Of a stretch of DNA of 64,000 nucleotides, positions 1,803 to 64,000 are shown in pieces. Made by a program: the position numbers and the translations under genes. Each line of letters starts with the position of its first letter. Within the stretch, counting starts at the first letter, position 1. The notes beneath the pieces were generated by a model. It was not told where the DNA came from. It was given only the letters and a program-made list of their open reading frames with translations, and ran no database searches. The stretch comes from Pseudoduganella albidiflava (GTDB taxonomy: Bacteria > Pseudomonadota > Gammaproteobacteria > Burkholderiales > Burkholderiaceae_D): positions 6,696,001 to 6,760,000 of the forward strand of contig NZ_CP036401.1 of assembly GCF_004322755.1 (NCBI RefSeq), given 5' to 3'.

Positions 1803-1806
1803 GGGT

Positions 1807-4619: not shown

Positions 4620-4623
4620 GGTG

Positions 4624-6668: not shown

Positions 6669-6773
6669 GGCATCTCCTGGCGTTCGTCCGGCCGAGCGGC
6701 GACGCGTGCCGCGATCAGCGAAGGCGCGTCGATGACGCACACGATGGAAACCGGTTTGCCGCTGTCGGTCATG

Positions 6774-7793
6774 TCATTCATCCACGGCCTGGTTGGCGCC
6801 GGCCGGCGTGCTGACGATCCGCTTCAGGATCGACAGGACCGAGCCCATCGAGCGTTCCAGCCGCAGCATGCGCTCATCCAGCACGGCCGGGTACTGGTTC
6901 GCGAACACGGCGCTTTCCGCATCGAACCCGCCCGGCTCCGCCAATGTTCCCGCGGCAGCCTGCGTGGCGGAGGGTGCGTCGAACTCCTGCTGGATATCGC
7001 GAATCACGGTGTCGACGTCGGCATCGGTGAAGGCATGCATCTCCTCAAGGAAACCCATCAGCAGCAGGCGGTCGCACAGGTGATTGGTCTTGCGCGGAAT
7101 GCCTCCCGTGAATTCGTAAATGGCCGCATAGGCCGCCGGCGTAAATGACGGATCGCCTTGCCAGCCCACGGTGAGCAAGCGGTGTTCGATATAGGCCTGG
7201 GTCTCCAGCTCATCCATCGGTCCCAGGTGATAGGTGGCGATCACGCGCTGGCGCAGTTGCTGCATGCCGGGGTTATGCAGCGTGGCGCGGAACTCCGGCT
7301 GGCCCAGCAGGAAAGTCTGCAGCAGTGGCTTATCATCGGACTGAAAATTGGACAGCATGCGCAATTCTTCCACCACGCGGGGTGTCAGGTTCTGCGCTTC
7401 ATCAACCACCAGTAGCGCCCGCTTGCCTGCCTGGTCGCAACCGCGCAAGAAGGTCTCCAGGCGGGCCAGCAGCGTGGTCTTGCTGGCGCTGTCCTCGAAC
7501 GGCAGGCCAAAGGCCGCCACCACGCCGCGCAGGATGTCGTCCGCGTTGACGTGGGTGTTGACGATGTGCGCGGCCACGATGCGATCCGATTCGAGCTGGC
7601 GGAACAGGTTGCGCACCAGCGTCGTCTTGCCGGCACCGACTTCGCCGGTGATCACAATGAACCCTTCGCCCTGCGCCAACCCGTAGTCCAGGTAAGCCAT
7701 GGCCCGTTTGTGGCCCTTGCTACCGAAAAAGAAGTGGGGGTCCGGGCGCAAGCGGAAGGGCTTGTCGCTGAGCCCGTAGTAACTCTCGTACAT
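6774..7793 (-). CDS. XrtA/PEP-CTERM system-associated AAA ATPase
   Basis: A 339-residue ATPase resembling ExeA of type II secretion. Walker A is GEVGAGKTT (about residues 50-58), Walker B is LLVVDEAQNL (about 124-133), and an arginine-finger region follows near GGIPRKTNHLC. The opening MYESYYGLSDKPFRLRPDP is the family signature (TIGR03015-like). It probably provides energy or regulation for polysaccharide or protein export; its partner is not established. The C-terminal 80 residues are low in conserved features. It is followed 105 bases later by the deacetylase and preceded by the outer-membrane protein gene, in the order typical of XrtA loci. Confidence 0.92.
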   Translation of the reverse strand: MYESYYGLSDKPFRLRPDPHFFFGSKGHKRAMAYLDYGLAQGEGFIVITGEVGAGKTTLVRNLFRQLESDRIVAAHIVNTHVNADDILRGVVAAFGLPFEDSASKTTLLARLETFLRGCDQAGKRALLVVDEAQNLTPRVVEELRMLSNFQSDDKPLLQTFLLGQPEFRATLHNPGMQQLRQRVIATYHLGPMDELETQAYIEHRLLTVGWQGDPSFTPAAYAAIYEFTGGIPRKTNHLCDRLLLMGFLEEMHAFTDADVDTVIRDIQQEFDAPSATQAAAGTLAEPGGFDAESAVFANQYPAVLDERMLRLERSMGSVLSILKRIVSTPAGANQAVDE

Positions 7794-7810
7794 GAAAAGG
7801 TCTCGCTCGG

Positions 7811-9346
7811 TCAGAAATTCATCGAAAGGGAGGCCGACACTGCATTCTCCGCATAGGAGCTGTTCTGCAAGGCCAGCCCGCCAGAGCTGCGCCGAACTTC
7901 CACCGTGCCGCTCAAACGTGGCTGGAAGCTGTGCGACACGTTGAACCGTAGTTGCCGGTTGTTTTCGCTGAGGTTGCCGCTGAGTGATTTGCTACGGCCG
8001 GTACTGGCGGACAGTGCCGCGGCGGTGAGTGCGCTGAGCCGGTAGCCGACGTTCAGCGAAATGCCGGTCTGGTCGGTATTGTCGTTCAGGTTCTGCTGCT
8101 CGCTGCCCAGCAGCGGGCTGTCATATTGCACCAGGGACAGCGCTTCACGACGCGACTTGTACAGCGTGACCGTCGTGGTGGTGCGCGCCGAGCGCAAGGC
8201 AACCGATGCGTTGAACTGCCGCTGCAGCGAATAGCGATTGCTGAAATAGTTGATGGCATTCGGCAGCGAGCGCGGCAGGCCCAAGGCCCGGATGTAGGCT
8301 TCGACGAACGCTGCGCGCATGACCGGGTCGGGAAAATTGGCCTGGTACATCTGGTTCAGCATGGCCGCCGTGTCGACCGACGATGGCAGCAGGAAATTGC
8401 TGCGGCTCGTGGTCACGTCATCGCTGTAGTTGATGCTCCACACCGTATTGCGGCTGCGGTGCGAAACGGCCAGGAAGTAACTGTTGCCATAGTAGCGGCG
8501 GCCAGCCGACATGCGCACGCTGGTCCGCGTGCTGGGTTCGTAGCCGAACCCCAGCGACCAGGAGGCGCCCTTGGTTCCCTCGCCCATGCCGTCGTAATCG
8601 AACTTGTCGTAGCCGCCAGTGGCCGTCAGGTTGAATTGCCGGTTCAGCGAATAGCGCAGGTTGGCCAGCGCCGAGCTGTTGATCGATTTTGGCGCGATAC
8701 TGTCTTCCACGGTTTCACGGTTCAGCTGCAGGCCCCAACCGAGTGTCTTGAAAGCCTGCCCGCTGTTGAGCGACAGATCGATGACGTCCGAGGTACTGCG
8801 GCCGAAACCGACCTGGTCGCTGTCGACCAGGTCATGCGAGTAACGCAGTTGCGTGGTGGCGAAGGCGCCGAACTGATGCACGATGTATGGCGACACGCGG
8901 TAGGAACGCACCTCGCTGCGATTGGTATCGGAATACCCATTGTTGCTGACCGGGCCGAATGCGGAGACCTGCGCCTGCGAGATGCCGGCGGTCGCGTCGA
9001 CGAACAGGAGATCCTGGATCACGCTGCTCTTGACGGTCGCGTTCAAGGAATTGTTGAAGCGATCGCTTCCCGTCGCCCGGCGATCTGAATAGGCGAAAGC
9101 ATTCAGCCGGTACGATGCCGCCACCTGGAGCCGCGGAGTGTCGTTCGTGATCGTGACGCCTGGCGATACCGAAGTGATGAACTGGCTCTGCTTTTCGTTG
9201 TCGCTGCGCAGCTGCGGATTATCCGACCATGTCTCGCGCAATTCGACGCTCGGCTTGACCTGCCATGCCGCGCGCACCGCCGACGGCAGCAGCGCAAGCA
9301 GCATCGCCGAGCCCAGCACGGCACAGCGGGCACGACGTTTAGCCAT
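7811..9346 (-). CDS. PEP-CTERM system-associated outer-membrane beta-barrel protein
   Basis: A 511-residue exported protein of the TIGR03016-like family. Residues 1-27 form a signal peptide ending AVRAA. The mature part is a series of alternating amphipathic strands, for example RLQVAASYRLNAF, TTQLRYSHDL and RSARTTTTVTLYKSR, and it ends in phenylalanine (SLSMNF), the usual signal for outer-membrane insertion. It is probably the outer-membrane channel or anchor for XrtA-linked polysaccharide or protein export. Its start overlaps the autokinase stop by eight bases. Exact strand number cannot be counted reliably by eye. Confidence 0.9.
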   Translation of the reverse strand: MAKRRARCAVLGSAMLLALLPSAVRAAWQVKPSVELRETWSDNPQLRSDNEKQSQFITSVSPGVTITNDTPRLQVAASYRLNAFAYSDRRATGSDRFNNSLNATVKSSVIQDLLFVDATAGISQAQVSAFGPVSNNGYSDTNRSEVRSYRVSPYIVHQFGAFATTQLRYSHDLVDSDQVGFGRSTSDVIDLSLNSGQAFKTLGWGLQLNRETVEDSIAPKSINSSALANLRYSLNRQFNLTATGGYDKFDYDGMGEGTKGASWSLGFGYEPSTRTSVRMSAGRRYYGNSYFLAVSHRSRNTVWSINYSDDVTTSRSNFLLPSSVDTAAMLNQMYQANFPDPVMRAAFVEAYIRALGLPRSLPNAINYFSNRYSLQRQFNASVALRSARTTTTVTLYKSRREALSLVQYDSPLLGSEQQNLNDNTDQTGISLNVGYRLSALTAAALSASTGRSKSLSGNLSENNRQLRFNVSHSFQPRLSGTVEVRRSSGGLALQNSSYAENAVSASLSMNF

Positions 9347-10310
9347 AGTGATAGTCGTACTTGCTGGACGTGTTCAGCTCGCGCGACTTGTTATAGACGA
9401 GATTGACATTGCTGCAGCCTTCGAGCTGCTGCAGCGCTTCCTTGACCGCGTGCTGGGTCGTTTTCTCCGACTCGACGACCACCACGATCTGGCCCATGTG
9501 GCTGGCCAGCACGTGCGCTTCGCTCGTCAGCAGCAACGGCGGCGAATCGAAGATCACGATTCGGTCCGGGTAGCGGCTGGCGATTTCCAGCACCAGCGAC
9601 TTCATCGCCTGGCTGGCCAGCAATTCCGTGGCGCGCGGATTCGACGTGCCTGCCGGCAGGATCGACAAGGTGTTGACGTTAGTGCGCAACATCACTTCGG
9701 ACATGTCGAGGTGTTCATCCAGCAAGATGTCCATCAGGCCGCGCTGGGCCGGCAGCCCCAGCGTGCGCAGCACGGAAGGACGGGCCACGTCGGCATCGAC
9801 CAGCAGCACGGTGTGGTCGAGTTCCATGGCGATGCTCATTGCCAGGTTGATCGACGTAAATGTCTTGCCTTCGCCCGGCAGCGAACTGGTGATCATGATC
9901 AGGTTGCCCGGATTGGCGTTCGGCTTGCGCGCCACGAAGGCCCGCTTGATCAGCGGCCGCTTGATGATGCGGAAATCCTCGACCAGGTTGGTGCGCCCAC
10001 CGGCCGCGGTGACGAGGCCGGCATCGTTCATGCGGGCCAGGTCCAGTTCGATCATGCGGCCACTGCGGCGCAGCGGTTCCGGTGCCGCCGGCTCCGGATT
10101 GGACAACGCGACCGCGGGTCCCTGCGCCCTCGCCTCGACTTCGGGCAACTCGGCCACTGCGACATCCTGGCTGTCCATGACCGGTTCCGGTACGGACGCG
10201 GCAGGCTGCGCAACAGACTGCGCAATAGGCTGATTACGCACCTGGGCCAGCGGCGCTGCGGGTTCTGCGGACTTGCCGATACGATTGGCGGCTTTTTCAA
10301 TGATGCTCAC
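9339..10310 (-). CDS. XrtA-associated BY-type tyrosine autokinase
   Basis: A 323-residue cytoplasmic bacterial tyrosine kinase, the Wzc/EpsB-like partner of the chain-length determinant encoded just upstream. The Walker A segment is SLPGEGKTFTSINLA, A' is TVLLVDADVARPS and the Walker B strand is IVIFDSPPLLL. The C-terminus carries clustered tyrosines (SKYDYHYG), the expected autophosphorylation tail. The start is placed at a GTG (VSIIEKAANRIGK) at 10310 because an AGGA ribosome site lies 7 bases ahead and this N-terminus matches the family; an ATG at 10376 would overlap the preceding gene. The low-molecular-weight phosphatase at 24210 is a plausible dephosphorylating partner. Confidence 0.9.
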   Translation of the reverse strand: MSIIEKAANRIGKSAEPAAPLAQVRNQPIAQSVAQPAASVPEPVMDSQDVAVAELPEVEARAQGPAVALSNPEPAAPEPLRRSGRMIELDLARMNDAGLVTAAGGRTNLVEDFRIIKRPLIKRAFVARKPNANPGNLIMITSSLPGEGKTFTSINLAMSIAMELDHTVLLVDADVARPSVLRTLGLPAQRGLMDILLDEHLDMSEVMLRTNVNTLSILPAGTSNPRATELLASQAMKSLVLEIASRYPDRIVIFDSPPLLLTSEAHVLASHMGQIVVVVESEKTTQHAVKEALQQLEGCSNVNLVYNKSRELNTSSKYDYHYG

Positions 10311-10335
10311 GATGTATCCTGTGCTTTCCCCCGGC

Positions 10336-11865
10336 TCAGGCTTGCCGGAAAACAGTGAAGGCCAATACTCCGCCATACGCGGTAATCAGCGAGGCGACGG
10401 CGGCGGCAAAGGCATACAGGCGGCGGCGGCGGCGCACTTTCTGCTGGTCCGTCCAGTTCATGCCGATGCTGCCAAGGATCGGCAGGCCGGTGACTTCGCG
10501 CAGGTTGGTCTGGCTGAGGAAGGTCGGCCGGATCTGGCTCAGCAACAGCGCAGTGCCCAGGCCGGCAACGAGCGCGCCCAGCAGGACGAGCGTGTACAGG
10601 CGTGGCCGGTTCGGCCCGGCCGGCACACTGGGTACCGACGGTGGATCGACGACGCGGAAGGTCAACATGTCGGTGACCGTGGACAGGTCACCCGACAGCT
10701 TGGCCGATTCGCGGCGCTGCACCAGCTTCTCGTAATTTTCCTTGTTCACGGCGTAATCGCGGTTCAGCTGGGCCAGCTGGGCTTCCACTTCCGGTGCCTG
10801 GGTGCTCAGCGACCGCATTTGCGCCAGGCGCGACGAATATTCGCCCACCCGTGCCTTCAGCGATGCGATGCGCGCTTCCTCAACGGAGAGCTGGACATTC
10901 ATCTGCTGGAGCATCGGGCTGTAGCTGGCACCGGGGTCGGCTGCGCGAACCTTCTTGGCTTCGTCCTTCTTGCGTTGCTCCAGCTGGCCGAGGAGGCGCT
11001 TGGCCGCCACGATGTCCGGATGTTCCTCGGTGAACTGCAAGCGCAGCTGGTCGAGGTTCTTTTCCACGTTCGAAATGCGGCCATCGATTTCCGGATTGAC
11101 GATGGCCCGTTCCGCCGTATCGGTCACCGGTGCCATGTCTTCGCCAGCGATCTGGCGCTTGATCGCGTTGCGCGCTTCTTCCGCTTCCAGCAACTCCAGC
11201 CGGGCCTGGCTGATTTTTTCGCTCAGGTCGCCGTAGGCGGACGCGTAGTCGCCGCCCTGCCGTGGCAGCAGGCCCATGTGGCGAATCTTGAACTCCTTCA
11301 GCGCATTTTCACCCGTGGCCAGCTTTTCCTCGTACATCTTGATCTGGTCATCGATGAACTGGATCGCCTTTTCCGATTCCTGCTTCTTCCCGCCGAAACT
11401 GCCTTCCACGAAGATCGTCAGCAGCGATTGCACGACGTCCTTGCCCAGCTTCGGATTGGGATTGTTATAGGAAATTGTGTAAATGTCGTCGCGCTCGGTG
11501 CCGATGATCCGGATCTGGTTCATCAACTCGTCGACGATCTTTTCATGTTCTTTCGGGGTCTTCGCCGTGATGTCGAGATCGACCATGCGCAGCACGCGTT
11601 CCACGTTCGGGCGGCTGATCAGCGTGCGCCGCATGAACATCACTTGCTGTTCCGTATTTGGCAGCGTGGTCATGCTTGCAAGCAAAGGCTTCAAGATACT
11701 TTGGGTATCAACGTAAACGCGCGCCGAAGCCTGGTAATCATTGGGCAGCCTGGACACCACGGTCCAGCCGACAACGGCAACCAACCAGGTGATTGCCACC
11801 GCATACCAGCGGTACTTGCCAATTGCTTTGAGGAAGCTCAAAAGCAGGGCCATCATTTCTGCCAT
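10336..11865 (-). CDS. XrtA system polysaccharide chain-length determinant (Wzz/PCP family)
   Basis: A 509-residue inner-membrane polysaccharide co-polymerase. A first membrane segment lies at about residues 20-40 (WYAVAITWLVAVVGW). A large periplasmic coiled-coil region covers about 80-420, and a second membrane segment near 425-445 is preceded by the Pro-rich motif VVDPPSVPSVPAGPNRPR. This is the family signature of chain-length regulators. It controls polymer length and contacts the autokinase encoded next. It is the first gene of the XrtA operon; the 270-base region upstream is divergent to the trypsin-like protease gene. The ATG at 11865 is used, although ATGs at codons 4 and 5 are equally possible. 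Confidence 0.92.
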   Translation of the reverse strand: MAEMMALLLSFLKAIGKYRWYAVAITWLVAVVGWTVVSRLPNDYQASARVYVDTQSILKPLLASMTTLPNTEQQVMFMRRTLISRPNVERVLRMVDLDITAKTPKEHEKIVDELMNQIRIIGTERDDIYTISYNNPNPKLGKDVVQSLLTIFVEGSFGGKKQESEKAIQFIDDQIKMYEEKLATGENALKEFKIRHMGLLPRQGGDYASAYGDLSEKISQARLELLEAEEARNAIKRQIAGEDMAPVTDTAERAIVNPEIDGRISNVEKNLDQLRLQFTEEHPDIVAAKRLLGQLEQRKKDEAKKVRAADPGASYSPMLQQMNVQLSVEEARIASLKARVGEYSSRLAQMRSLSTQAPEVEAQLAQLNRDYAVNKENYEKLVQRRESAKLSGDLSTVTDMLTFRVVDPPSVPSVPAGPNRPRLYTLVLLGALVAGLGTALLLSQIRPTFLSQTNLREVTGLPILGSIGMNWTDQQKVRRRRRLYAFAAAVASLITAYGGVLAFTVFRQA

Positions 11866-12956: not shown

Positions 12957-13118
12957 ATAAGCAACACAAAATTTACACAATGAAAGTTACGAGTAGGTAA
13001 TGACTGCCAACGCTGAGCGATGGCGCATGTCGATGCCACACTTCGATGCCACAGTTCAGACCGCAGTCTTCACTGCAGCTCGGACCTTATCGTTGCAATG
13101 ACCAGACTGGAGAGTCCC

Positions 13119-13736
13119 GTGAAATACCAAACGCTGTTCAAATGGCTGGCAGCAGGCGCGATCATGCTGGGTGCCCTGGGCGGTTGCGCCAGTTCGGGCA
13201 ATACGATGGTCGATGCGGGGCCCGCGCCGGCGTCCCATTACCTGATCGGCCCTGGCGATAACGTCAATATCGTTGTCTGGCGCAATCCTGAAGTGTCGCA
13301 AAGCGTGCCCGTGCGGCCGGACGGCAAGATCACAACTCCGCTGGTCGAGGATCTCGAAGCCAGCGGCAAGACCCCTACCGAACTGGCACGCGACATCGAA
13401 AAGGCGCTGGCCAAGTACATCCAGCAGCCGGTCGTCACCGTCATCGTCACTGGTTTCACGGGAACCTATGGAGAACAGATCCGCGTGATCGGCCAGGCCG
13501 CGCGACCGCAGGCATTGCCTTACCGGCGCGACATGTCGCTGATGGACGTGCTGATAGCGGTGGGCGGCGTGACGGAATTTGCCGCTGGAAACAAGGCCAC
13601 GATCATCCGCAACGTGGACGGCAAACAGCAACAATATCGTGTGCGGTTGAACGACCTGATCAAGGAAGGCGATATCTCGGCGAACGTGTCGATGCGTCCC
13701 GGCGACATCCTCGTGATCCCGGAAAGCTTCTTCTAA
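13119..13736 (+). CDS. XrtA/PEP-CTERM locus polysaccharide export lipoprotein (Wza-like)
   Basis: A 205-residue lipoprotein of the Wza/BexD family, the outer-membrane exit for exopolysaccharide. The signal peptide ends in the lipobox LGGC, so Cys24 or so would be acylated. The Poly_export domain shows YLIGPGDNVNIVVWRNPEVS and VRPDGKITTPLVEDLEASGKT, followed by a SLBB-type segment with VIGQAARPQALPYR and MRPGDILVIPESFF. Its length is that of the short XrtA export family (TIGR03027-like). The start is a GTG at 13119 because GGAG lies 5 bases ahead; an ATG at 13098 has no ribosome site. Confidence 0.92.
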   Translation: MKYQTLFKWLAAGAIMLGALGGCASSGNTMVDAGPAPASHYLIGPGDNVNIVVWRNPEVSQSVPVRPDGKITTPLVEDLEASGKTPTELARDIEKALAKYIQQPVVTVIVTGFTGTYGEQIRVIGQAARPQALPYRRDMSLMDVLIAVGGVTEFAAGNKATIIRNVDGKQQQYRVRLNDLIKEGDISANVSMRPGDILVIPESFF

Positions 13737-18499: not shown

Positions 18500-19264
18500 T
18501 CAGCCAATCTGCAGCAAACGGCTGGCAATCCCTTGCTCTTCGCGTGGCGAAAAAAAGAAGGGATATAAAGAACGCTCGCCGGCAGGATGCATGCTGGTAC
18601 CACCGAGCTTGCGGATCTGCTCATTGACATAATCCATGCTCACATGCAGCAGATATGCCGGCGCATCGACGCGCGGATTACTCCGCAATTCACCGATCTG
18701 GTTAAATCCCAGCATGTTCATATAATATCGACGATGGCGTGGATTCACCTCGATGAATACATCGGTGCAGTTGTGCAGATAATGGCCATAAATGAAAAGC
18801 ACATGGAACAGCGAAGCCAGTGCGCTTTTCGATTTCACGTGCGGGGCAAAAGCAAGCTTGGTAATCTCGCAGACCTTCGCGCCACGCGCACGAAATTCCT
18901 CGATATAGTCCGAAAATACCTCGTCGGCCAGGATTCCCATCGATGAATCGATGCCCAGCGTTACGGTTCCGATGACTTCCCCCTTGTCGGAGGCAGCCAG
19001 GGTGATACGGTTAGGGTTGTTATCGATCCGGTGTGTGCCTGCATAGCCGCGCCAGGCATACATCTTGTTGATGAGCATGCTCGCGGAAGCACGCCCGGAG
19101 TCATTATCGGCAACGCGGATGCCGAAATCGGATTGATTGATAGTCACATGCGTTATGTTTGCAGAGTTATCTTCTTCGACAGCACAGATCAAGGGCTCGC
19201 CGGATTCGTAATCGTCCGGTAAAAGCTGATCGGTGTTGCCGTCCTTGGTAAACTCTGAGGCCAT
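18500..19264 (-). CDS. FeeM-like long-chain N-acyl amino acid synthase, copy 1
   Basis: A 254-residue GNAT-fold acyltransferase of the FeeM/N-acyl amino acid synthase type, which joins a long-chain acyl group from acyl-ACP to an amino acid. Its core motifs are shared with copies at 59110 and 63160: SMLINKMYAWRGY, NPNRITLAASD, VCEITKLAFAP, FIEVNPRHRRYY, NPRVDAPAYLL and SLYPFFFSPREEQ. The start ATG at 19264 follows AGGGGAG by 6 bases. It is a single gene between the transglycosylase and an AT-rich regulatory region. Synthases of this kind have been linked to XrtA systems before; the amino acid substrate here is unknown. Confidence 0.85.
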   Translation of the reverse strand: MASEFTKDGNTDQLLPDDYESGEPLICAVEEDNSANITHVTINQSDFGIRVADNDSGRASASMLINKMYAWRGYAGTHRIDNNPNRITLAASDKGEVIGTVTLGIDSSMGILADEVFSDYIEEFRARGAKVCEITKLAFAPHVKSKSALASLFHVLFIYGHYLHNCTDVFIEVNPRHRRYYMNMLGFNQIGELRSNPRVDAPAYLLHVSMDYVNEQIRKLGGTSMHPAGERSLYPFFFSPREEQGIASRLLQIG

Positions 19265-19299
19265 AGCACACTCCCCTGTTGAGTGGCTCGACATCTTTA

Positions 19300-19324
19300 A
19301 TTGGTAACGGAGCAAGTTACCAAT
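19300..19324. promoter_or_regulatory. Perfect 9-bp dyad in FeeM copy 1 leader
   Basis: ATTGGTAAC and GTTACCAAT are exact inverted repeats with a 7-base spacer, 36-60 bases upstream of the FeeM start. Because it lies between the putative -10 (19376) and the gene, it could act as a repressor operator or as a leader hairpin. Confidence 0.6.
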
Positions 19325-19375
19325 CGTGCCGTGCATCTTCAACAACTGCTAATTATTATTTATTGTGTATTACTA

Positions 19376-45932: not shown

Positions 45933-46532
45933 ACGGGTTCCGTTCGAGAATTACAATTTGTCTTTATGCCAACTATATATCAAAAATTCCACTAATACAA
46001 TATTGATAACGATGCTTCTCAGTTGGCGCGCTTGAACCCAGCGGTTCCCCACAGCTGTCAGTCGAAGTTGTCTACCAGAAATTGCAGGAATGATACGACC
46101 AGATTTTACACGGGTAACTCGACCATGACTCAGCGCTAACGCAAGATCTTTTGTTGAATTCGAACGCAATAACTGCTTAGGCAATGCCGGAAAGCATAAC
46201 CTTGTTGTTAACTAAGAATGTCAGGAAATTGTCGAATTGACAGGAAAAAAAGCAAAGCGTTGCGCAGGCGCATCGGTTGTGTTTCCGACCAGAAATTACA
46301 GAGGGAAGTAACGTGCTTATGAGAACTTACGGCCTCGCTGCGGCCCCTGCCGGATGGCCGCAGGCGTACAAAGTGCCGCGTTGAATGGTGTCGCGTTTTA
46401 ACCAAGTAGTCACTCGGTCTTGCCCTTTCTATAATTTAATTTTATTAACACCTTTGTGTTTCCTCAGTATATGATCTTCGATGCTAGCGCCCGGGAAGTC
46501 CGCGCTCGACAGTGCTATCGATAGGACGATCT
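45933..46532. other. 600-base divergent intergenic region (tviB / prsT)
   Basis: This region lies between divergent tviB and prsT and is AT-richer than the flanks. No gene is visible. A TATAAT lies at 46430-46435 but without a good -35. I see no convincing sigma-54 promoter here, though prsT belongs to the same system. It probably holds promoters for both operons. Confidence 0.6.
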
Positions 46533-49298
46533 ATGCATCACAGCATGACTAACAAGCAAGTAGCGGCAGCCCTCGTGTTGGTTCTTGCAGCCATGGCAGG
46601 GTGCTCGAAAGATGAGTCTCCCGAACAGCTGATCGCCCAGGCCAAGCAATACGAAAGCAAGGGCGACAGCAAGGCGGCGATCATCCAGCTCAAGAATGCG
46701 CTGCAGGCCAGGCCTGACGACGCCGCCGCGCGGTTGGCGCTCGGCCGCCTGTACCTGAAAACGGGCGACCATGTCTCGGCCGAGAAGGAATTGCGGCGCG
46801 CCATCGATCTCGGCAGCAACCGCACCGAGGTCTTGCCGCTGCTGGCCAAGTCCCTGTTGCTGCTGAATAAACCCCAGGCTGTATTGGATGAGACTGCCTC
46901 AGCGCCGCCCGACGCTACCCTGCTGGGCCTGCGTGGCGACGCGTTCCTCGCCCTGGAAAAACTGGATGAATCCCGGCAGGCCTTCGAGAGTGCGTTACAA
47001 CTCGAACCAAACAACAGCACTGCGCTGAACGGCCTCGCGCGCCACGCCTTGCTGAAGGATGACATCGCTGGCGCAACGCGCCTGGCCGACAGCGCGGTTG
47101 CGCACAATCCGGCCGATGTCGATGCGCTGATGTTCCGCGCCGATCTCGACAAGGCGATCGGCAAGCTGGACGCGGCGCGCATCACCTATGACAAGGCGCT
47201 GAAGCTCAGTCCCGGCACAGGCGCCGCGCACCTGCAAAAGGCTTACCTCGACATCAGCCAGGCCAAGTTCGATGCGGCGCGCGCGGATATCGCCGCGCTG
47301 AGGAAGCTGGAGCCGGGGAACCTGCTTGCCTACCATGCACAAGCCTTGCTCGATTTTTCGGAAGGCAAGTACAAGGCGGCGCTCGACAATGTCCTGAATG
47401 TGCTGAAAGCAGCACCGGAACATTTGCCCAGCCAGCTGCTGGCCGGCGCGACCCAGTTCACGCTGGGTTCCTTCCCGCAGGCCGAGCAGCACCTGAAAAA
47501 ATATATCGAGTCCGACCCCGGCAACCTCTACGCGCGCAAGATGCTTGCCTCGGTCTATCTGGGCATGAACCGGCCGCAGGATGCGCTGGCGGAGCTGAAA
47601 AACTATCTCGACAAGTCCGACGATACCGCATTGCTCAATGTCGGCGCCCGCGCGTACCTGAACCTGAAGCAGTACGACAAGGCGACGGCGATCTATCAGC
47701 GGGCCCTGGAACTGGCGCCCGCCGATGCGCAGCTGCACATGGGCCTGGGCCTGGCGAAAATGAGCAAGGGCGACGCCGACGGTGCGATCAAGTCCATGCG
47801 CAAAGGCCTGGAGTTGAGTGCGCCCAAGGCGATCGACACCGGCATCGTGCTGGGCATGACGCACCTGCAATTGAAACAGTATGAGCAGGCGCTGGCGGTG
47901 ATCAACCAGATGCTGCAGCGCGCGCCCAAGAGCGCCCTGCTGTACAACCTGCAGGGCGGCGCGCTGCTTGGCCAGAACAAGCGGAGCGACGCGCGGCTTG
48001 CCTTTGAAAAGTCGATGCAGTTGCAGCCGACCTACTTCACGGCAGTCAATAACCTGGCGCGGATGGACATCGCGGACGGGAAGCCGGATGCGGCGCGCCA
48101 GCGTTACCAGGGGTTCATCGACAAGAACGCCGGCAGTGCGGAAGCGATGCTGGCCCTGGCCGACCTGGCACTCATCGAGAACAAGCAGGCGGACGCGACC
48201 AAATGGCTCGAAAAAGCCAACGCTGCCGCGCCAAAGCTGGTGGGGCCGGCATTGCGGCTGACACAGCAATACCTTGCCACGGGCGAAAAGCGCAAGGCGC
48301 TGACGCTGATCTCCGCCGTGCAGCTGGAAGATCCCGAGAACCCGTTGCTGCTCGATATGCTCGGCAAGGTGCAGGCAGCCAACGGCAACAAGGCCGCGGC
48401 GCTGGAAGCCTATGGCCGGCTGGCTACCGTGCAGCCGCGCACGACCGGCATCACGGCGCGCCTGTCCGCTGCATACGAAGCGCTGGGTGAACGCGACCTG
48501 GCCGCCGACACCTTGCGCAAGGCGCACACCGAACAGCCGGACGACGTGGGCATCCTGCTGGCCCGGGCCGCCGTCGAGACACGCCGCGGCAACCATGAGC
48601 AGGCCATCATGTTCGCGCGGGACGTGCAGCGCCGCCCCGGCAACCTGATCGCCGGATTGATCGTGGAAGCGGAAGTGCGCGAAGCGCAGCAGAAGCCCGA
48701 CCTGGCGATTCCCGTCTACCAGCGTGCACTGCAGGAAAACAAGGCATCGTCGCCACTGCGGATCAAGCTGGCCAACGCATATCGGCAAGCCGGCCGCACC
48801 GACGAGGCACTCAAGCTCGTCCAGCAATGGCGCAGCGAGCGCCCGCAGGACAGGGCGATCGCCGTCTACCTGGGTGAGCTCTACGTCGCGCAAAAGAAAT
48901 ACCCGGCCGCGATCGACACTTTCACGGCCCTGCTGAAAGACTTGCCCGACAACGGCATCATCTTGAACAACCTGGCCCTGGCATATCAGTCAGCGGGAGA
49001 CCCACGCGCGCTGGAAACGGCCGAACGGGCCATGAAAGCACTTCCGCAGAGTGGCGCCGCCATGGATACGCTCGGCTGGATACTGGTCGAGAAAGGCAAC
49101 CTCGGACGTGGCTTGCCGCTGCTGAAGCAGGCCAGCGCGGCCGAACCTGCCGCCGCCGACATTCGCTACCACCTCGCCGCGGCGTACGCACGCAATAACG
49201 ACAAGGCCGCGGCACGCAAGGAACTGGAAACCCTGCTGGCCGCGAAAGGCGACATTGCCCAGGCCGAGCAGGCGCGCGCGCTGCTGAAACAGCTTTGA
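46533..49298 (+). CDS. prsT: XrtA/PEP-CTERM system TPR lipoprotein PrsT, copy 1
   Basis: A 921-residue lipoprotein. MHHSMTNKQVAAALVLVLAAMAGCSKDE shows the lipobox AMAGC. The rest is a near-continuous superhelix of some 20 TPR units, such as EQLIAQAKQYESKGDSKAAIIQLKNALQARP and AIYQRALELAPADAQLHMGLGLA. It should be an envelope scaffold that recruits polysaccharide or PEP-CTERM machinery. The start is ATG 46533, with AGGA 6 bases ahead. A paralogue of the same architecture is at 60307. It is a single-gene unit upstream of the flavoprotein and PEP-CTERM genes. Confidence 0.93.
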   Translation: MHHSMTNKQVAAALVLVLAAMAGCSKDESPEQLIAQAKQYESKGDSKAAIIQLKNALQARPDDAAARLALGRLYLKTGDHVSAEKELRRAIDLGSNRTEVLPLLAKSLLLLNKPQAVLDETASAPPDATLLGLRGDAFLALEKLDESRQAFESALQLEPNNSTALNGLARHALLKDDIAGATRLADSAVAHNPADVDALMFRADLDKAIGKLDAARITYDKALKLSPGTGAAHLQKAYLDISQAKFDAARADIAALRKLEPGNLLAYHAQALLDFSEGKYKAALDNVLNVLKAAPEHLPSQLLAGATQFTLGSFPQAEQHLKKYIESDPGNLYARKMLASVYLGMNRPQDALAELKNYLDKSDDTALLNVGARAYLNLKQYDKATAIYQRALELAPADAQLHMGLGLAKMSKGDADGAIKSMRKGLELSAPKAIDTGIVLGMTHLQLKQYEQALAVINQMLQRAPKSALLYNLQGGALLGQNKRSDARLAFEKSMQLQPTYFTAVNNLARMDIADGKPDAARQRYQGFIDKNAGSAEAMLALADLALIENKQADATKWLEKANAAAPKLVGPALRLTQQYLATGEKRKALTLISAVQLEDPENPLLLDMLGKVQAANGNKAAALEAYGRLATVQPRTTGITARLSAAYEALGERDLAADTLRKAHTEQPDDVGILLARAAVETRRGNHEQAIMFARDVQRRPGNLIAGLIVEAEVREAQQKPDLAIPVYQRALQENKASSPLRIKLANAYRQAGRTDEALKLVQQWRSERPQDRAIAVYLGELYVAQKKYPAAIDTFTALLKDLPDNGIILNNLALAYQSAGDPRALETAERAMKALPQSGAAMDTLGWILVEKGNLGRGLPLLKQASAAEPAAADIRYHLAAAYARNNDKAAARKELETLLAAKGDIAQAEQARALLKQL

Positions 49299-58599: not shown

Positions 58600-59109
58600 G
58601 CAAGATCCCGGAAAGCGCATTGCGCCGGCATGGCCGTTGCGCGGCCCGGCGGGAGGTCATGCCCGAAGAATGTTCAGGATCGATTCACCATCGGAGCAGC
58701 ACTCTTCCAGCGGTGACAATCCGGGTGGGTATGACGTCCCCGACCACCCCACATCCGCTTGCAGGCCTGTATCCATCAATCTTTGCGATCCTTGAGCCCG
58801 GCTTCGGTATATGATCGCTGCAATGCGGGCATTGCAACTGTACATGAGATAACGCAACGATAGCGACGGGTCTTCTCCCGGCCGCAAAAGATGGATGATC
58901 ACGCATGGCACCTGGCGATCGCCGAAGGCTTGTGCTCCAGCCTTCACCCTGAACCTGGTACCGGACCTTGCAATAGTTGACTTGAACAAGAGCAGGCGCA
59001 CTGATTCTTCGGCTTTCTCCCTCGGCGGGAGTGCCTGGATGGACAGCCCAGGCCGAAGCAATCGCTGGACCGGCAAAACGCATCATTGAGTATCAACGGA
59101 GGGGAACTC
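58600..59109. other. 510-base intergenic region upstream of FeeM copy 2
   Basis: No gene is visible. It has a possible promoter (TTGCGA at 58783 with TATATG at 58808, spacer 19) followed at once by the perfect 18-base palindrome TGCAATGCGGGCATTGCA (58819-58836). From there a leader of about 270 bases runs to the FeeM start at 59110. GGAGGGG precedes the gene. Confidence 0.6.
58819..58836. promoter_or_regulatory. Perfect 18-bp palindrome near possible promoter of FeeM copy 2
   Basis: TGCAATGC-GG-GCATTGCA, 8-base arms, directly after the putative -10. The position at the expected start site is typical of a repressor operator. It differs from the dyad in front of FeeM copy 1. Confidence 0.5.
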
Positions 59110-59886
59110 ATGGCAACCTTTAGCAAAAGGGCAAATGCCTCCGGGCCGGGAGATCATCTGGACAACGATCTCGGGTTGAAGAACGACTTGCCCGTATCGG
59201 AGGCTGAACCCTCCGGCGCTCTTCAAAATGTCCTCATCGATACAAAGACGTTCGGCATCCGCCTGGCCGATACCGAAGAAGGCCGCAATTCCGCCAGCTT
59301 GCTGATCAACAAGATGTATGCGTGGCGCGGCTATGGTTCTTCCCACAAGGTCGAATCCAATCCCAACCGGATCACGCTGGCCGCATCGGAAAAGGACGGC
59401 ACCACGATCGGTACCGTGACCCTGGGCATCGACTCCGAGTCCGGGCTGCTGGCGGACGAGATTTTCAAGGACCACGCCGATGCGTTGCGCGAGCGCGGCG
59501 CGCAACTCTGTGAAATCACCAAGCTCGCATTCGATCATACCGTGCGGTCGAAACACGCCCTGGGCGCCCTGTTTCACACACTCTATCTCTACGCTCACCA
59601 CATGCACGGCCGCACCCATGCGCTGATCGAAGTCAACCCGCGTCACCGCCGCTTCTACGAAAGCATGCTGGGCTTCAAGCGCGTGGGTACGGTCCGGGAA
59701 AACCCCCGTGTACAGGCTCCCGCCTACCTGCTGGGTGTCGAGCTGACCGATATGGCGGAACAGATCAGCCAGTTCGGCGGCACCGCCGACAAGCCGGCCG
59801 GCCAGGCACAGCGATCGCTGTATCCGTACTTTTTCTCCGTACGGGAAGCGGAAGGTATCGTCAACCGCCTGAAGCTGATTGCCTGA
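59110..59886 (+). CDS. FeeM-like long-chain N-acyl amino acid synthase, copy 2
   Basis: A 258-residue GNAT-fold acyltransferase closely related to copies 1 and 3. Residues from about 45 share FGIRLADTEEGRNSASLLINKMYAWRGY, NPNRITLAASEKD, LLADEIFKD, LCEITKLAFD, LIEVNPRHRRFYESMLGF, NPRVQAPAYLL and SLYPYFFSVREAEGI. It uses acyl-ACP and an amino acid by analogy with FeeM. The start is ATG 59110 behind GGAGGGG. It is 420 bases upstream of prsT copy 2. The N-terminal 40 residues are variable between copies. Confidence 0.85.
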   Translation: MATFSKRANASGPGDHLDNDLGLKNDLPVSEAEPSGALQNVLIDTKTFGIRLADTEEGRNSASLLINKMYAWRGYGSSHKVESNPNRITLAASEKDGTTIGTVTLGIDSESGLLADEIFKDHADALRERGAQLCEITKLAFDHTVRSKHALGALFHTLYLYAHHMHGRTHALIEVNPRHRRFYESMLGFKRVGTVRENPRVQAPAYLLGVELTDMAEQISQFGGTADKPAGQAQRSLYPYFFSVREAEGIVNRLKLIA

Positions 59887-60306
59887 GCTGGCCGGAACAC
59901 GATCCCGTTCAGTTGCGGGTTGTCACGGGCGTTCACGGTTTGCGGCGTCATCAGCCACTCATCGCAGTCGACCGGCTTGCCGCAACTTGTTCAATTCCTT
60001 GTTGTAATTGAACGCATTGGCGCGTCACATGGAAGCTGGCACGCAACGGCAAAGGAAGACGCCTTTGCAGCGTCCCGCTGGTCCAGTGGCGGCAACATGC
60101 ACACCTTGCCAGGTTTCCACCACTCTCCGGTGTAGCCTGGCCCTTCCTGACTGACTGCTCGAGAGCCGCCATCTGCGGCGACTCCACCGCTACCGATGTC
60201 CTGCATGTCGACATCGCCGCTGCCTGATGGTCGCGATCGCCAACTCTTGCTCAAAATGCACGTCCGTGTAACCATTGGTCACCCTTACTATTAATCGGGG
60301 ATTACC
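59887..60306. other. 420-base intergenic region between FeeM copy 2 and prsT copy 2
   Basis: No gene is visible. It contains a perfect dyad, GTTCAATT-N9-AATTGAAC (59989-60013). It also has a near-miss sigma-54 motif, TGGCACG at 60033 followed by GGCA one base too close. A GGGGAT ribosome site lies 5 bases before prsT copy 2. Confidence 0.6.
59989..60013. promoter_or_regulatory. 25-bp dyad upstream of prsT copy 2
   Basis: GTTCAATT and AATTGAAC are exact inverted repeats with a 9-base spacer. It lies about 295 bases upstream of the prsT copy 2 start. Operator or hairpin; no protein is known to bind it. Confidence 0.4.
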
Positions 60307-63075
60307 ATGTACGGTTTGGTCAAAGCAAGTGTCGATGCACGCGCTTACCTGCTCATTGCCTGTAGTACGTTCCTGGCAATCACCGGATGCGGTTCGGAGT
60401 CGCCTGAAACGCTGCTGGCGCAAGCCCGCCAGTACGAACAGGCAGGCGATCACAGGGCGGCCATGATCCAGTTGAAAAATGCCCTGCAAGAAACGCCCGA
60501 CAATCGCGAAGCACGCCTGTCGCTCGCCAATATCCACATTGTGCTGGGCGACGGCGCGGCAGCGGAAAAAGAAGCGCGCCGTGCCGCCCAGCTCGGTGCA
60601 CCAGCCGCCAGGACCGTGCCGGCCATAGCGCGCGCACAGCTGTTGCAGGGCCAGTTCCAGCGGGCACTCGACGAGCTCGAACGCAGCGGCATGGACGACG
60701 CAGGCAGCCTCGCGTTGCGCGGCGAGGCCCTGCTGGGATTACAGCAGGGTGCCCTGGCTCGCCAAGCCTACGCGAAGGCGCTCGAACGCGATCCGGCACA
60801 TGTCGACGCCATGCTGGGTCTGGCGCGCCAGGACTTGCTGGATGGCGACCTCGGCGGGGCTGCCCGGCTGGCGGAAGACGTACTTCGTACCGCGCCCGAC
60901 AATACCAGCGCCTGGCTGCTGAAGGGCGAACTGGCCAAGGCCAACCATCAGCCGGCCGCGGCGCTCGCGGCGTACGATCGTGTCCTCGCCATCGCGCCGA
61001 AGAATCTCCTGGCACGGTTGCAGAAGGCGCACCTCCTCATGGGCAACAAGGACTATGCGGCCGCGCGCGCGGAACTCGCGAAGGCGGCACAGGTCGCCCC
61101 CAACAATCCGGGTACCCTGTACGTGCGGGGATTGCTCGAAGCCGAGCAAGGCCAGTACAAAGAGGCGCTTGCCGCCGCACAGGCGGCATTGCGGGTCAAC
61201 CCCGACCATTGGCCAACGGTCTTCCTGGCTGGCTCGATGCAGCTGAAACTGCGCTCGTTGCCACAGGCCGAGGAGCATTTGCGGCGCTACGTGCAGGCCC
61301 TTCCCGGCAATGCCGATGCGCGGCGCCTGCTGGCCGCCGCGTTGACCGAGTCGAGCCAGGCCAAGGAAGCGCTGAAGGTACTGGCGCCGGTACTGGAGCG
61401 CGACGCTGATGCAGCGGCCTTCGCGATGGCCGGGAAGGCGGCGCTTGCACTGAAGCAGCATGGCCAGGCCACCGCCTACCTGGAGCGTGCCGTCGCCCTG
61501 GATCCGAAACTGGCGGAAGCGCGGCGTTCACTTGGCCTTGTCCGGATCGCCAATGGCCAGCGGGAACGCGGCTTCGCCGAGCTGGAAGCGGCCGAGCGCC
61601 TGGATCCCGGTGGCGAAAGCGGCCTCCTCCTGGCGCTGACAGCCTTGCGGCTGCAGGAGTTCGACAAGGCACTGAGCACAGTCAAGACGCTGGAGAGCCG
61701 CAACGGCGCCAAGCCCGAGTTGCTTCAGGTGGCCGGCCAAGCCTACCTCGGCAAGCGGCAGGACGCCGAGGCGCGTGCCAGCTTCGAACGCGCCGTGCGC
61801 CTGGCCCCGGCTTACTTCCCGGCCGTGGCCAGCCTTGCCGAGATGGACCGGCGCGAGCATCCCGCTGCCGCCAGGCAAAGGCTTACCGCCTATGTCACGG
61901 CTTATCCGAAAAGCGTTGCGGCGATGAATGCGCTGGCAAACCTGGCCGGTGCGGAAAACCGGATGGACCAGGTGACCTACTGGCTGGAACGCGCGCGCGA
62001 CGCGCAACCGCATGCGGTGCCGCCGGTAATCCAGTTGAGCGCGCAATACCTGCGCACGGGCCAGCAGCGCAAGGCACTCGCCCTGATCCGCAATGCCCAG
62101 GTCGCGCATTCGTCCGACGCCAGCCTGCTGGACATGCTGGGCCAGGCCCAACTGGCCGAAGGCGATACCGCCGGCGCTATCGAGAGCTACCAGAAACTTG
62201 CCAGCCTGATGCCGGACACACCGCTGGCTCACCTGCGCGTGGCCGCGGTGCACGTGGTGCGGCAGAACGATGGCGCTGCCGAGAGCGCATTGAAAAAAGT
62301 CCTGCAGCTCCAGCCCGATCATCTTGAGGCCGAGGTCATGCTGCTGCAGGTCCTCAAGCGGCAGGGCCGGGGCGACCAGATGCAGGCGCTGTTGCGCCAG
62401 GTGCAGGCGCAAAAGAACAATGCCAAGGCTGGCTACATGATGGAGGGCGACTGGATGGCTGAGCAGAAGCGCTATCCGGCCGCGCTGGCCGCCTACGAGA
62501 AAGCCTATCAGCTGGGCCGGACGCGCGACGTGGTCTTGCGCCAGCACATGGTACTGGCCGCCCAGGGGAACGGGGCCGAAGGGCTGCGCCGTGTCGCTGC
62601 GTGGCAGAAGGAACACCCCGACGATGTCTCGGTGCGCGCCTACCTCGCGGAAGCTTATACCTCTGCCCGCCAGTACAAGCCGGCGATCGAACACTGGCAA
62701 GCCCTGCTGAAAAACGTGCAGCCCAGCGCAACGATCCTGAACAACCTGGCATGGGCCTATCACCAGGAAAAGGATGCGCGAGCCCTGCCGACCGCCGAAC
62801 AAGCCTACAAGCTGGACAGCAAGAGCGGCGCCGTGGCCGATACGCTGGGCTGGATTCTGGTCGAGGAAGGGCAGGTACCGCGCGGGATTGCAGTATTGAA
62901 GCAGGCTGTAGCGGTAGCGCCGTCGATGCGGGAAGCGCGCTATCATTTGGCATATGCTCTCAAGCAATCGGGTGACAAGCCACAGGCGCGTGCGCAGTTA
63001 CAACAGTTAATTGCCGCGCACGGTGATGCCGCAGCCGATCAACGGATCCGCGCATTGCTTGGCGAACTCAATTGA
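60307..63075 (+). CDS. prsT: XrtA/PEP-CTERM system TPR lipoprotein PrsT, copy 2
   Basis: A 922-residue lipoprotein with lipobox ITGCGSES after the signal peptide. It has the same architecture as the copy at 46533: an opening ETLLAQARQYEQAGDHRAAMIQLKNALQETPDN and about 20 TPR units, ending RAQLQQLIAAHGDAAADQRIRALLGELN. It is flanked by FeeM copies 2 and 3, so the FeeM/PrsT combination is duplicated. The start ATG at 60307 follows GGGGAT. A paralogue may take over envelope scaffolding for a different product. Both copies contain the segment GAVADTLGWILVEEGQ-like near the end. Confidence 0.92.
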   Translation: MYGLVKASVDARAYLLIACSTFLAITGCGSESPETLLAQARQYEQAGDHRAAMIQLKNALQETPDNREARLSLANIHIVLGDGAAAEKEARRAAQLGAPAARTVPAIARAQLLQGQFQRALDELERSGMDDAGSLALRGEALLGLQQGALARQAYAKALERDPAHVDAMLGLARQDLLDGDLGGAARLAEDVLRTAPDNTSAWLLKGELAKANHQPAAALAAYDRVLAIAPKNLLARLQKAHLLMGNKDYAAARAELAKAAQVAPNNPGTLYVRGLLEAEQGQYKEALAAAQAALRVNPDHWPTVFLAGSMQLKLRSLPQAEEHLRRYVQALPGNADARRLLAAALTESSQAKEALKVLAPVLERDADAAAFAMAGKAALALKQHGQATAYLERAVALDPKLAEARRSLGLVRIANGQRERGFAELEAAERLDPGGESGLLLALTALRLQEFDKALSTVKTLESRNGAKPELLQVAGQAYLGKRQDAEARASFERAVRLAPAYFPAVASLAEMDRREHPAAARQRLTAYVTAYPKSVAAMNALANLAGAENRMDQVTYWLERARDAQPHAVPPVIQLSAQYLRTGQQRKALALIRNAQVAHSSDASLLDMLGQAQLAEGDTAGAIESYQKLASLMPDTPLAHLRVAAVHVVRQNDGAAESALKKVLQLQPDHLEAEVMLLQVLKRQGRGDQMQALLRQVQAQKNNAKAGYMMEGDWMAEQKRYPAALAAYEKAYQLGRTRDVVLRQHMVLAAQGNGAEGLRRVAAWQKEHPDDVSVRAYLAEAYTSARQYKPAIEHWQALLKNVQPSATILNNLAWAYHQEKDARALPTAEQAYKLDSKSGAVADTLGWILVEEGQVPRGIAVLKQAVAVAPSMREARYHLAYALKQSGDKPQARAQLQQLIAAHGDAAADQRIRALLGELN

Positions 63076-63159
63076 GCTGACTCCCGGGCTGGACGATTCC
63101 GGAGCATTGCCTTCCCGGGTCGAGGATGGGCCGCAGGTGACTTCGAAAGGTTCATTTTC

Positions 63160-63912
63160 ATGAATGCAACCAAAACATCCGGCGACCGCGAGGTCACTGG
63201 CCAGTCCGATGCCGACAGCGAAAGACTTCCCGCGCTCGACGATTCCCTGCCGGGGAATATGCAGGACATCACCACTAACGAACATTCTTTCAGTGTACGC
63301 ATGCTTGATACTGCCGAAGGCCGAAACAAGGCGAGTTTGCTCATCAATAAAATGTATGCCTGGCGCGGCTATGCCGGCACGCACATGCTGACGGATGACC
63401 CGAACAGGATCACGCTGACCTCGACTGACCAGGGCGAGGTTGTCGGCACGATCACGATCGGGCTCGACTCCGAGTCCGGCATCCTGGCCGACGAACTGTT
63501 CAAGCCGGAAATCGACGCCTACCGGGCGCGCGGTGCGCGGGTATGCGAATTCACGAAACTGGCGTTCGATGCGAATGGCGGTTCGCGGCAGTCGATGGCG
63601 GCACTATGGCATCTGGCCTTCCTGCATGCCCACGATCTCCATCACTGCACGCATCTGTTTATCGAGGTCAATCCGCGCCACCATCGTTTCTACCAGAAGA
63701 TGATGGGCTTCCAGTTGCTCAGCGAACCCCGCATGAATCCGCGCGTCAACGCTCCGGCCTACCTGCTGTGCCTCGACCTCGACTACATGAAGTCGGAAGT
63801 CGAACGGGTCGGCGGCGGCCGCGCCGCGCCGGGCGACCGTTCTTTTTATACGCATTTTTACTCCCCACGCGAACAGGCTGGCATCATCGGCCGTCTGAAA
63901 GGCATGAGCTGA
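63160..63912 (+). CDS. FeeM-like long-chain N-acyl amino acid synthase, copy 3
   Basis: A 250-residue GNAT-fold acyltransferase. It shares SLLINKMYAWRGYAGTHM, DPNRITLTSTD, ILADELFKP, VCEFTKLAFD, FIEVNPRHHRFYQKMMGF and NPRVNAPAYLLCL with the other two copies but is the most divergent (CEFTKLAF in place of CEITKLAF). It lies 84 bases downstream of prsT copy 2 and 3 bases before a gene opening like ThiF/E1 proteins. It may make a different N-acyl amino acid or act in sequence with copy 2. Confidence 0.84.
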   Translation: MNATKTSGDREVTGQSDADSERLPALDDSLPGNMQDITTNEHSFSVRMLDTAEGRNKASLLINKMYAWRGYAGTHMLTDDPNRITLTSTDQGEVVGTITIGLDSESGILADELFKPEIDAYRARGARVCEFTKLAFDANGGSRQSMAALWHLAFLHAHDLHHCTHLFIEVNPRHHRFYQKMMGFQLLSEPRMNPRVNAPAYLLCLDLDYMKSEVERVGGGRAAPGDRSFYTHFYSPREQAGIIGRLKGMS

Positions 63913-63915
63913 GCG

Positions 63916-64000
63916 ATGGAAAACCAGTTCGACTACACTCGCGCCTTTTCCCGCAATATCGGTTGGGTCACGCCGGACGAGCAGCAGGCACTGCGCGGCA
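63916..64000 (+). CDS. Probable ThiF/E1-like adenylyltransferase, N-terminal fragment
   Basis: Only the first 28 residues are in the window: MENQFDYTRAFSRNIGWVTPDEQQALRG. This opening (FSRNIGW, then EQQALR) matches E1-like ThiF-family proteins that lie next to FeeM genes, but the nucleotide-binding motif is outside the window. Such proteins activate a C-terminal carboxylate by adenylation. It starts 4 bases after the FeeM copy 3 stop and is surely co-transcribed. The call rests on a short segment, so its family needs the rest of the gene. Confidence 0.55.
   Translation, partial: MENQFDYTRAFSRNIGWVTPDEQQALRG

Follow-up and report, generated by a model that had tools for sequence, protein, structure and literature searches.

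A FeeM-E1-nitroreductase cassette in Pseudoduganella albidiflava, its association with exosortase and PEP-CTERM genes, and a partner swap in related bacteria

At the end of a 64,000-nucleotide stretch of the Pseudoduganella albidiflava genome (the window, bases 6696001-6760000 of a one-contig genome of 7.44 Mb that we call G000) lies the opening of an E1/ThiF-like gene, directly behind a gene for an N-acyl amino acid synthase (NAS) of the FeeM family. Followed past the window edge, the two genes are joined by a nitroreductase-superfamily gene (NTR), and we consider it likely that FeeM3, E1 and NTR form a translationally coupled operon that makes an N-acyl dehydro-amino-acid oxazolone or the hydrolysed N-acyl dehydro-amino acid, the E1-like enzyme cyclising and NTR desaturating, and that is tied to the exosortase/PEP-CTERM system. 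Gene identity, order and coupling, conserved residues and co-occurrence are observed directly, as is a swap in some relatives of NTR for a methyltransferase. For the window, a lipid pathway that is defined, can be tested and is linked to the exosortase system takes the place of three loosely described paralogues and an "E1-like opening".

The locus and the proposed pathway

The row of FeeM2, PrsT2, FeeM3 and a ThiF/E1-like opening described in the original prediction is present at its positions by Pfam and TIGRFAM matches. FeeM2 (window 59086..59886, + strand; PF21926, 168 bits) has no E1 behind it, its next gene being PrsT2, an XrtA/PEP-CTERM-system TPR lipoprotein (60307..63075, +; TIGR02917, 775 bits, cut-off 312). 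FeeM3 (63160..63912, +; PF21926, 172 bits), an NAS of a mainly E1-adjacent clade, is the first gene of the proposed operon, and its stop is separated by 3 bases from the start of E1 (63916..64000, +, running on to genome base 6760791; 291 aa; positions 5916-6791 of the extended stretch L006). The E1 frame extends 791 bases beyond the window and is intact there; the full gene bears out the E1-like assignment of its opening, with 129 bits for PF00899 (ThiF) and 430 bits for NCBIfam PRK08223, to whose family it belongs (cut-off 266). The stop of E1 overlaps the start of NTR (genome 6760788-6761852, +) by four bases (ATGA), and a PEP-CTERM protein gene (genome about 6762003-6762923, +), whose product ends in VPEPGTLALLGLGLLGLTFTRRARS, begins about 150 bases past NTR.

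The E1 protein also matches PRK14851 (277 bits) and PRK14852 (221 bits), both under their whole-protein cut-offs; these models unite E1 with NTR, and FeeM with E1 plus, weakly, NTR. Invariant in 22 E1s are R13, the GxGGxGG motif, D61, N67, R70, Q71, K83, D124 and D127, which we take, from ThiF and MoeB, to serve ATP binding and adenylation; 14 chosen site columns are identical in 16 of 17 E1s, the remaining one differing at a single column. MoeB, ThiF, AclA (9egb), PaaA and MccB were among the best structure matches listed for E1, and no oxazolone cyclase was in that list. Pfam Nitroreductase recognises a short part of NTR (34 bits against a cut-off of 23.5), and the top solved structure for its family profile is Acg (2ymv, E 2.8e-12). 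PF00899 and PF00881 are fused in 118 of 120 E1 homologues (the best 120 of 1960, found with a fusion as query and with only lengths of about 357-1137 aa eligible). No E1-methyltransferase fusion was seen among the same 120, which is weak evidence, the list being ranked towards E1-NTR fusions. Homologues of all three components of an oxazolone cassette, an acyltransferase, a ThiF-type cyclase and a flavin desaturase, thus stand together in this locus.

In the proposed pathway, FeeM3 would join an acyl chain to an amino acid, perhaps an aromatic one, to give an N-acyl amino acid; the E1-like enzyme would adenylate the free carboxylate with ATP, and the amide oxygen would close a 5(4H)-oxazolone; and NTR, as a flavin mononucleotide (FMN)-dependent enzyme, would desaturate the C-alpha/C-beta bond using O2. 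The product would be the N-acyl dehydro-amino-acid oxazolone, or the N-acyl dehydro-amino acid after hydrolysis of the ring, and the cassette would probably co-produce a surface lipid or signal, a role that we link to the exosortase/PEP-CTERM system by co-occurrence and neighbourhood. Reactions, substrate and role are all what we infer from the genes. An N-acyl amino acid that is "activated", as originally suggested, agrees with the biochemistry of the family, in which TyzB and TrzS, both ThiF homologues, cyclise N-acyl amino acids with ATP (PMC10404671, PMC12856293).

Somewhat short of even, in our estimate, is the chance that the open-chain N-acyl dehydro-amino acid is the true end product and the oxazolone a mere transient that acidifies C-alpha for oxidation; such a reading is a variant of the pathway just described, not exclusive of it, so that the odds of the two overlap. 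Kyonggic acids, thalassotalic acids and stieleriacines are open-chain compounds, and those producers whose compounds are unsaturated have ThiF and NTR in their gene sets, as described in PMC12479983; moreover, cyclisation by TrzS precedes desaturation (PMC12856293). Against this, such compounds may come from hydrolysis or alcoholysis during work-up, and losses of that sort are reported in PMC12856293.

Scans of L006 600-9100 for sigma-70 promoters and terminators gave chance levels, and the terminator-like stem 3' of the PEP-CTERM gene belongs to a kind that occurs at chance level in this stretch. A shared sigma-54 promoter was considered and rejected: the -24/-12 pattern with one mismatch allowed has 4 matches in the window, where 3.4 are expected, and is absent from L006. 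One such one-mismatch site (51986-52001, -), of a kind again at chance level, lies about 46 bases upstream of an EDSAP-1 PEP-CTERM protein gene (window 50987-51940, -). Past the PEP-CTERM gene of the locus, on the opposite strand, is a tandem pair of M13-type peptidase genes (L006:8991-13485, -), the first confirmed by Pfam and the second assigned by ORF (open reading frame) likeness.

Co-occurrence and neighbourhood in relatives

A strong association of E1 with FeeM and with the exosortase system is evident in an order-level sample of 120 genomes, in which E1 was counted over its curated cut-off, FeeM at a chosen threshold of 90 bits and PrsT at E up to 1e-80. E1 is present in 25 genomes, FeeM in 27 and both in 23 (Fisher p 1.8e-18, overstated since the genomes are related); at Pfam's own 27 bits, FeeM is found in 45 of the 120. 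FeeM lies no more than 10 kb from E1 in 21 of the 25. PrsT accompanies 24 of 25 E1 genomes versus 12 of 95 others (Fisher p 2.5e-15, likewise overstated by kinship), and an exosortase is found in 24 of 25 versus 25 of 95. In 20 of the 25 loci a PEP-CTERM ORF lies no further than about 2.5 kb from the E1/NTR block, where about 0.8 would be expected from genome-wide PEP-CTERM counts made with a different detector. An acyltransferase like TIGR03694, the other exosortase-linked NAS family, is near E1 in four genomes (G103, G021, G112 and G049), the G112 copy being confirmed by the model.

A scan of named genomes, from which the best 80 of 515 E1 relatives were kept (biased to close kin, and with two the same records as order loci), gives a similar picture: within 4 kb of E1 there is FeeM in 43 loci, a TIGR03694-like acyltransferase in 10, NTR in 71 and a PEP-CTERM ORF in 66, and PrsT lies within 4.2 kb in 27. 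Twenty other stretches of the same genomes, 400 kb in total, contain 1 PEP-CTERM ORF. The order PrsT-FeeM-E1 occurs in 20 named loci, 18 of them in records that bear the name of an Oxalobacteraceae genus and the other 2 in Nitrosospira. Together, the named-locus and order-locus counts show that the PrsT/FeeM/E1 grouping of the window is a recurrent synteny; the E1-like partner behind FeeM3 and the company of PrsT and exosortase, which had been noticed in this one stretch, recur in relatives. A single conserved PEP-CTERM partner protein beside E1 was also considered and ruled out, the neighbours falling into several families. As a separate observation, a glycosyltransferase is near E1-NTR in 23 of the 80 named loci (L065, L068-L070, L073-L076, L079, L082, L083, L085, L086, L091 and others); it is EryCIII-like in the one member tested (L073), and the loci with it include Janthinobacterium and Duganella loci without FeeM within 6 kb.

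Several observations weigh against the proposed pathway. E1-NTR is not always located with FeeM, since among the 67 named loci flanked by 4 kb or more on either side, 22 showed no NAS within 6 kb of E1. In the order sample, 4 of the 27 FeeM genomes are without this E1 (G005, G039, G055 and G067) and two E1 genomes are without FeeM (G103 and G049); G013 has the cassette, and neither PrsT nor an exosortase was found there, while for the E1 of G049 neither NTR nor methyltransferase was found. NTR scores under the cut-offs of its nearest named families (115 bits with the second half of the Rv1355c-family model, 114 bits with the Acg-family model), so that its assignment is by family profiles and likeness to Acg. 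Finally, no oxazolone was observed in Massilia, Stieleria or Thalassotalea according to PMC12479983, which terms the role of ThiF enigmatic.

The frequency of PEP-CTERM genes beside E1, both in the order loci relative to expectation and in the named loci relative to control DNA, could be read differently, with the E1-activated N-acyl amino acid going onto the neighbouring PEP-CTERM protein, exopolysaccharide or another amine, and the exosortase link reflecting a lipid tag. Oxazolones are acylating agents, in keeping with such a transfer. We nevertheless regard conjugation as unlikely: the adjacent PEP-CTERM proteins span several families, inspection of the ORF lists for the locus brought up no E2-like or carrier gene (no profile search for them was made), adjacency to a PEP-CTERM gene may reflect only shared regulation, and NAS-PEP-CTERM adjacency had been reported earlier (Craig 2011, as cited in PMC7293339). 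Attachment of the N-acyl amino acid, the other half of the original suggestion, is not supported, no sign of a conjugation target having been seen, and we read the E1 activation as serving ring closure. That the E1 is a sulfur-carrier or ubiquitin-like activating enzyme (ThiF/MoeB/Ubl type) located here by chance is highly improbable, as it falls below the cut-offs of ThiF (78/275 and 75/159, score/cut-off in bits), MoeB (73/449, 68/266 and 51/377) and TcdA (57/304), is one of three coupled genes and co-occurs with FeeM.

Desaturase or methyltransferase beside E1

The replacement of the desaturase beside E1 by a methyltransferase in some relatives is well supported. Among 104 E1 loci (102 distinct records), 13 have no NTR ORF (profile E up to 1e-3), and a UbiE/COQ5-like methyltransferase is found in 7 of the 104, all of them within the 13 (Fisher p 9e-8, on distinct records). 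This methyltransferase is over the cut-offs of PF08241 and PF01209 and reaches 69 bits with TIGR01934, below the cut-off of 158. The other six NTR-less loci comprise four in genomes with an NTR elsewhere, one on a short contig (L111) and one in G049. A single-sequence search had suggested an E1 without any partner in six of twelve order genomes; this was abandoned when a profile search found NTR in G103 and G016, leaving G056, G092, G118 and G049 as NTR-less, three of these four having the methyltransferase.

The same partition is seen in a family sample of 245 genomes (NTR at E up to 1e-20, methyltransferase at E up to 1e-40; scoring was limited to the 8 to 12 top first-look candidates of each genome, so that weaker relatives would be missed). 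E1 is present in 63 genomes (62 over cut-off), NTR in 52 and a methyltransferase beside E1 in 10; all of the 52 and all of the 10 carry E1, and at the thresholds used no genome has both. The sole E1 genome of this sample with neither partner, G201, has an E1 below cut-off. In some of the methyltransferase-type genomes (G056, G092, G118 and those of L064, L072, L097 and L140), NTR was searched for down to E 1e-3. Three arrangements occur: the methyltransferase is directly behind E1 on the same strand, with 11-20 bases between the aligned stretches (G163); divergent, about 240-310 bases away (G141, G179, G202 and G221); or separated from E1 by a PEP-CTERM gene, at a distance of about 1.1-1.2 kb (G056, G180, G250, G284 and G338). 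An adjacent pair of the two genes is seen in locus L175. The ten genomes represent three genera and so are not ten independent cases; genus g3 of the sample includes both types, and on a tree of 99 E1s, made by a quick method, placing the methyltransferase label takes 6 changes, of which well-supported branches force at least 4, so that the swap recurs. A class-wide sample of 369 genomes gave one methyltransferase match (E up to 1e-30), in G423 of another family, about 240 bases from E1; the stretch also has two TIGR03694 acyltransferases and a PEP-CTERM ORF, and no NTR was seen within its 8 kb.

The E1 site residues are kept in six methyltransferase-type or partnerless loci and in L062, which has one change. 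The E1 dN/dS ratio (nonsynonymous to synonymous substitution rates) ranges from 0.11 to 0.25 for four methyltransferase-type pairs, which all come from related genomes, and from 0.06 to 0.29 for five NTR-type pairs, and single stops are flagged in the matched E1 stretch of genomes of both types (methyltransferase type, G092 and G284; NTR type, G078, G082, G169, G301 and G352). Near the E1 and NTR of L192 (G167, NTR type) is a weak methyltransferase match (31% over about 100 residues), and a different methyltransferase group, cluster 37, does co-reside with NTR in L066, L088 and L142.

Since NTR is replaced by the methyltransferase in some relatives, the E1 step is the shared one, and the swap hints at a second product line in those relatives; the window genome itself is of the NTR type. 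The C4-H of an oxazolone is acidic, and its enol form is a 5-hydroxyoxazole, a plausible substrate for a UbiE-like C-methyltransferase. Methylation of the alpha carbon followed by ring opening would yield N-acyl alpha-methyl amino acids, and we tentatively propose, at a little under even odds, that the oxazolone is a shared, E1-made, C-alpha-acidified intermediate with two exchangeable finishers, a flavin desaturase leading to dehydro-amino acids and a UbiE-like methyltransferase leading to N-acyl alpha-methyl amino acids. O-methylation and ring methylation by the methyltransferase are live alternatives. With E1 paired to either a desaturase or a methyltransferase, two chemotypes can be predicted from the genes that a genome carries, and the pairing suggests that an activated amino acid might be methylated enzymatically at its alpha carbon, a reaction that would be useful to chemists; the two-finisher proposal, if true, describes a biological counterpart of azlactone alkylation and offers a route to compounds like N-palmitoyl-alpha,O-dimethyl-L-tyrosine. 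That compound is reported from Alteromonas sp. RKMC-009 (PMC11943599), and we found no account of its biosynthesis in the open-licence literature searched.

Paralogous copies, the exosortase system and known systems

The single copies originally noted elsewhere in the window are likewise there: FeeM1 (18500..19345, -; PF21926, 176 bits) and PrsT1 (46512..49298, +; TIGR02917, 748 bits, cut-off 312). FeeM1-3 match PF21926 over the whole domain with 168-176 bits against a cut-off of 27 and keep its conserved columns; Y66, G70, Y71, T97, A135, E169, P172, H174, Y178, F184, R195 and L202 are invariant across 28 rows that include the window copies, and the near-invariant E130, the counterpart in the alignment of an E in FeeM 2g0b, is retained in all three. 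The loss of active-site residues that would have spoken against functional copies is thus not seen. Pairwise identities are 50-58% among FeeM1, 2 and 3 and 36-39% among PrsT1, 2 and 3, by which the copies are old paralogues and a recent duplication of a FeeM/PrsT module is rejected; the "duplicated module" of the original prediction holds only loosely.

The genome has two further PF21926 matches, a strong one at 3.09 Mb (FeeM4) and, at 4.38 Mb, a weak one of 29 bits. In the stretch around the former (L007, genome 3086000-3103000), FeeM (8423-9103, +) has a PEP-CTERM ORF (7231-8160, -) and PrsT (10844-13528, -) for company and there is no E1 match. On a tree of 51 FeeM rows with starred clades, FeeM3 falls in a starred clade of 27 rows, 26 of them E1-adjacent, and FeeM1 and FeeM2 share a neighbouring starred clade of five rows with two E1-adjacent Massilia FeeMs; FeeM4, near PrsT3, clusters with Nitrosospira. 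The retention of three FeeM lineages is compatible with different substrates without demonstrating them.

The genome carries an XrtA/PEP-CTERM system, with 2 exosortases, PEP-CTERM substrates and 3 PrsT (E up to 1e-80, from the scoring of 6 among 38 candidates). At the opposite end of the window from FeeM3-E1 are an exosortase (1807..3372, -; PF09721, 250 bits, match at 2506-3249) and an XrtA exopolysaccharide locus (627..11865, -), each of whose models is over its curated cut-off: TIGR03088 and TIGR03087 glycosyltransferases, FemAB (TIGR03019), a deacetylase (TIGR03006), an ATPase (TIGR03015), TIGR03016, a tyrosine kinase (TIGR03018) and a chain-length determinant (TIGR03007). An XrtA-system polysaccharide export protein (13020..13736, +) is over the cut-off of TIGR03027. 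PEP-CTERM matches in G000 number 106 at E up to 1, the highest of 25 genomes compared.

The best reading of the window cassette is that it belongs to a known kind, FeeM-E1-NTR as in the oxz, tyz and trz N-acyl oxazolone pathways, because the tyz and trz biochemistry and a Massilia NAS-ThiF-nitroreductase operon precede it. The pathway can hence no longer be called untested: there is characterised biochemistry for tyz and trz and, by citation, for oxz, and the Massilia operon has already been proposed for kyonggic acids (PMC12479983). Going beyond what we found in print are the counts of PEP-CTERM genes adjacent to E1 and the NTR-or-methyltransferase partition; no account of the partner swap or of the E1-exosortase counts was found in the open-licence literature searched, which is no proof of novelty.

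As described in the papers cited, tyz, trz and oxz alike combine an N-acyltransferase, a ThiF-type cyclase and a flavin desaturase, which are separate in tyz, with cyclase and desaturase fused in oxz and trz. The tyzACB genes (acyltransferase, ThiF homologue and nitroreductase-superfamily oxidase, leading to N-acyl tyrazolones; PMC10404671) and trzAS (cyclase fused to oxidase; PMC12856293) are mycobacterial, and oxzAB, known to us from the citing papers, is from Pseudoalteromonas rubra. The oxidase domain of TrzS is closest to the Acg structure (PMC12856293), as is the NTR of the window locus. A difference is that the main texts of PMC12856293 and PMC10404671 have neither exosortase nor PEP-CTERM, and the word methyltransferase is in neither.

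NAS, ThiF and nitroreductase genes are described in the N-acyl dehydrotyrosine producers Massilia kyonggiensis, Thalassotalea and Stieleria, and in all but Stieleria they are tightly packed (PMC12479983). The candidate kyonggic-acid operon of M. kyonggiensis resembles the window locus in its single NAS, ThiF protein and nitroreductase with gaps of less than 10 bp or overlapping frames; the likeness is by description only, and the main text of PMC12479983 is without PEP-CTERM, exosortase or PrsT. The nearest named E1 loci (best 80 of 515) include Massilia records. Cultured Massilia strains are now identified for testing an old question, the association of NAS genes with PEP-CTERM genes; of these, Massilia aurea JCM 13879 (L072) is of the methyltransferase type and Massilia terrae JCM 31606 (L087) of the NTR type.

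The stieleriacine cluster of Stieleria is similar in having NAS genes, ThiF, nitroreductase and a methyltransferase (PMC7293339, PMC12479983); in S. maiorica there is a PEP-CTERM gene too, and exopolysaccharide genes lie upstream, as given in PMC7293339. The cluster differs in having methyltransferase and nitroreductase together, whereas the E1-adjacent methyltransferase and NTR are mutually exclusive in the sampled family; because this UbiE-like methyltransferase occurs with ThiF and nitroreductase (PMC12479983), the exclusion may fail outside the class studied here. UBA/THIF genes are listed in a table of PMC3684757 for a Rubrivivax exopolysaccharide locus. The link of NAS genes with neighbouring PEP-CTERM and exosortase genes (Craig 2011, as cited) is restated in PMC4897644; as cited, it concerns NAS, and to it the present analysis adds the E1, NTR and methyltransferase partners.

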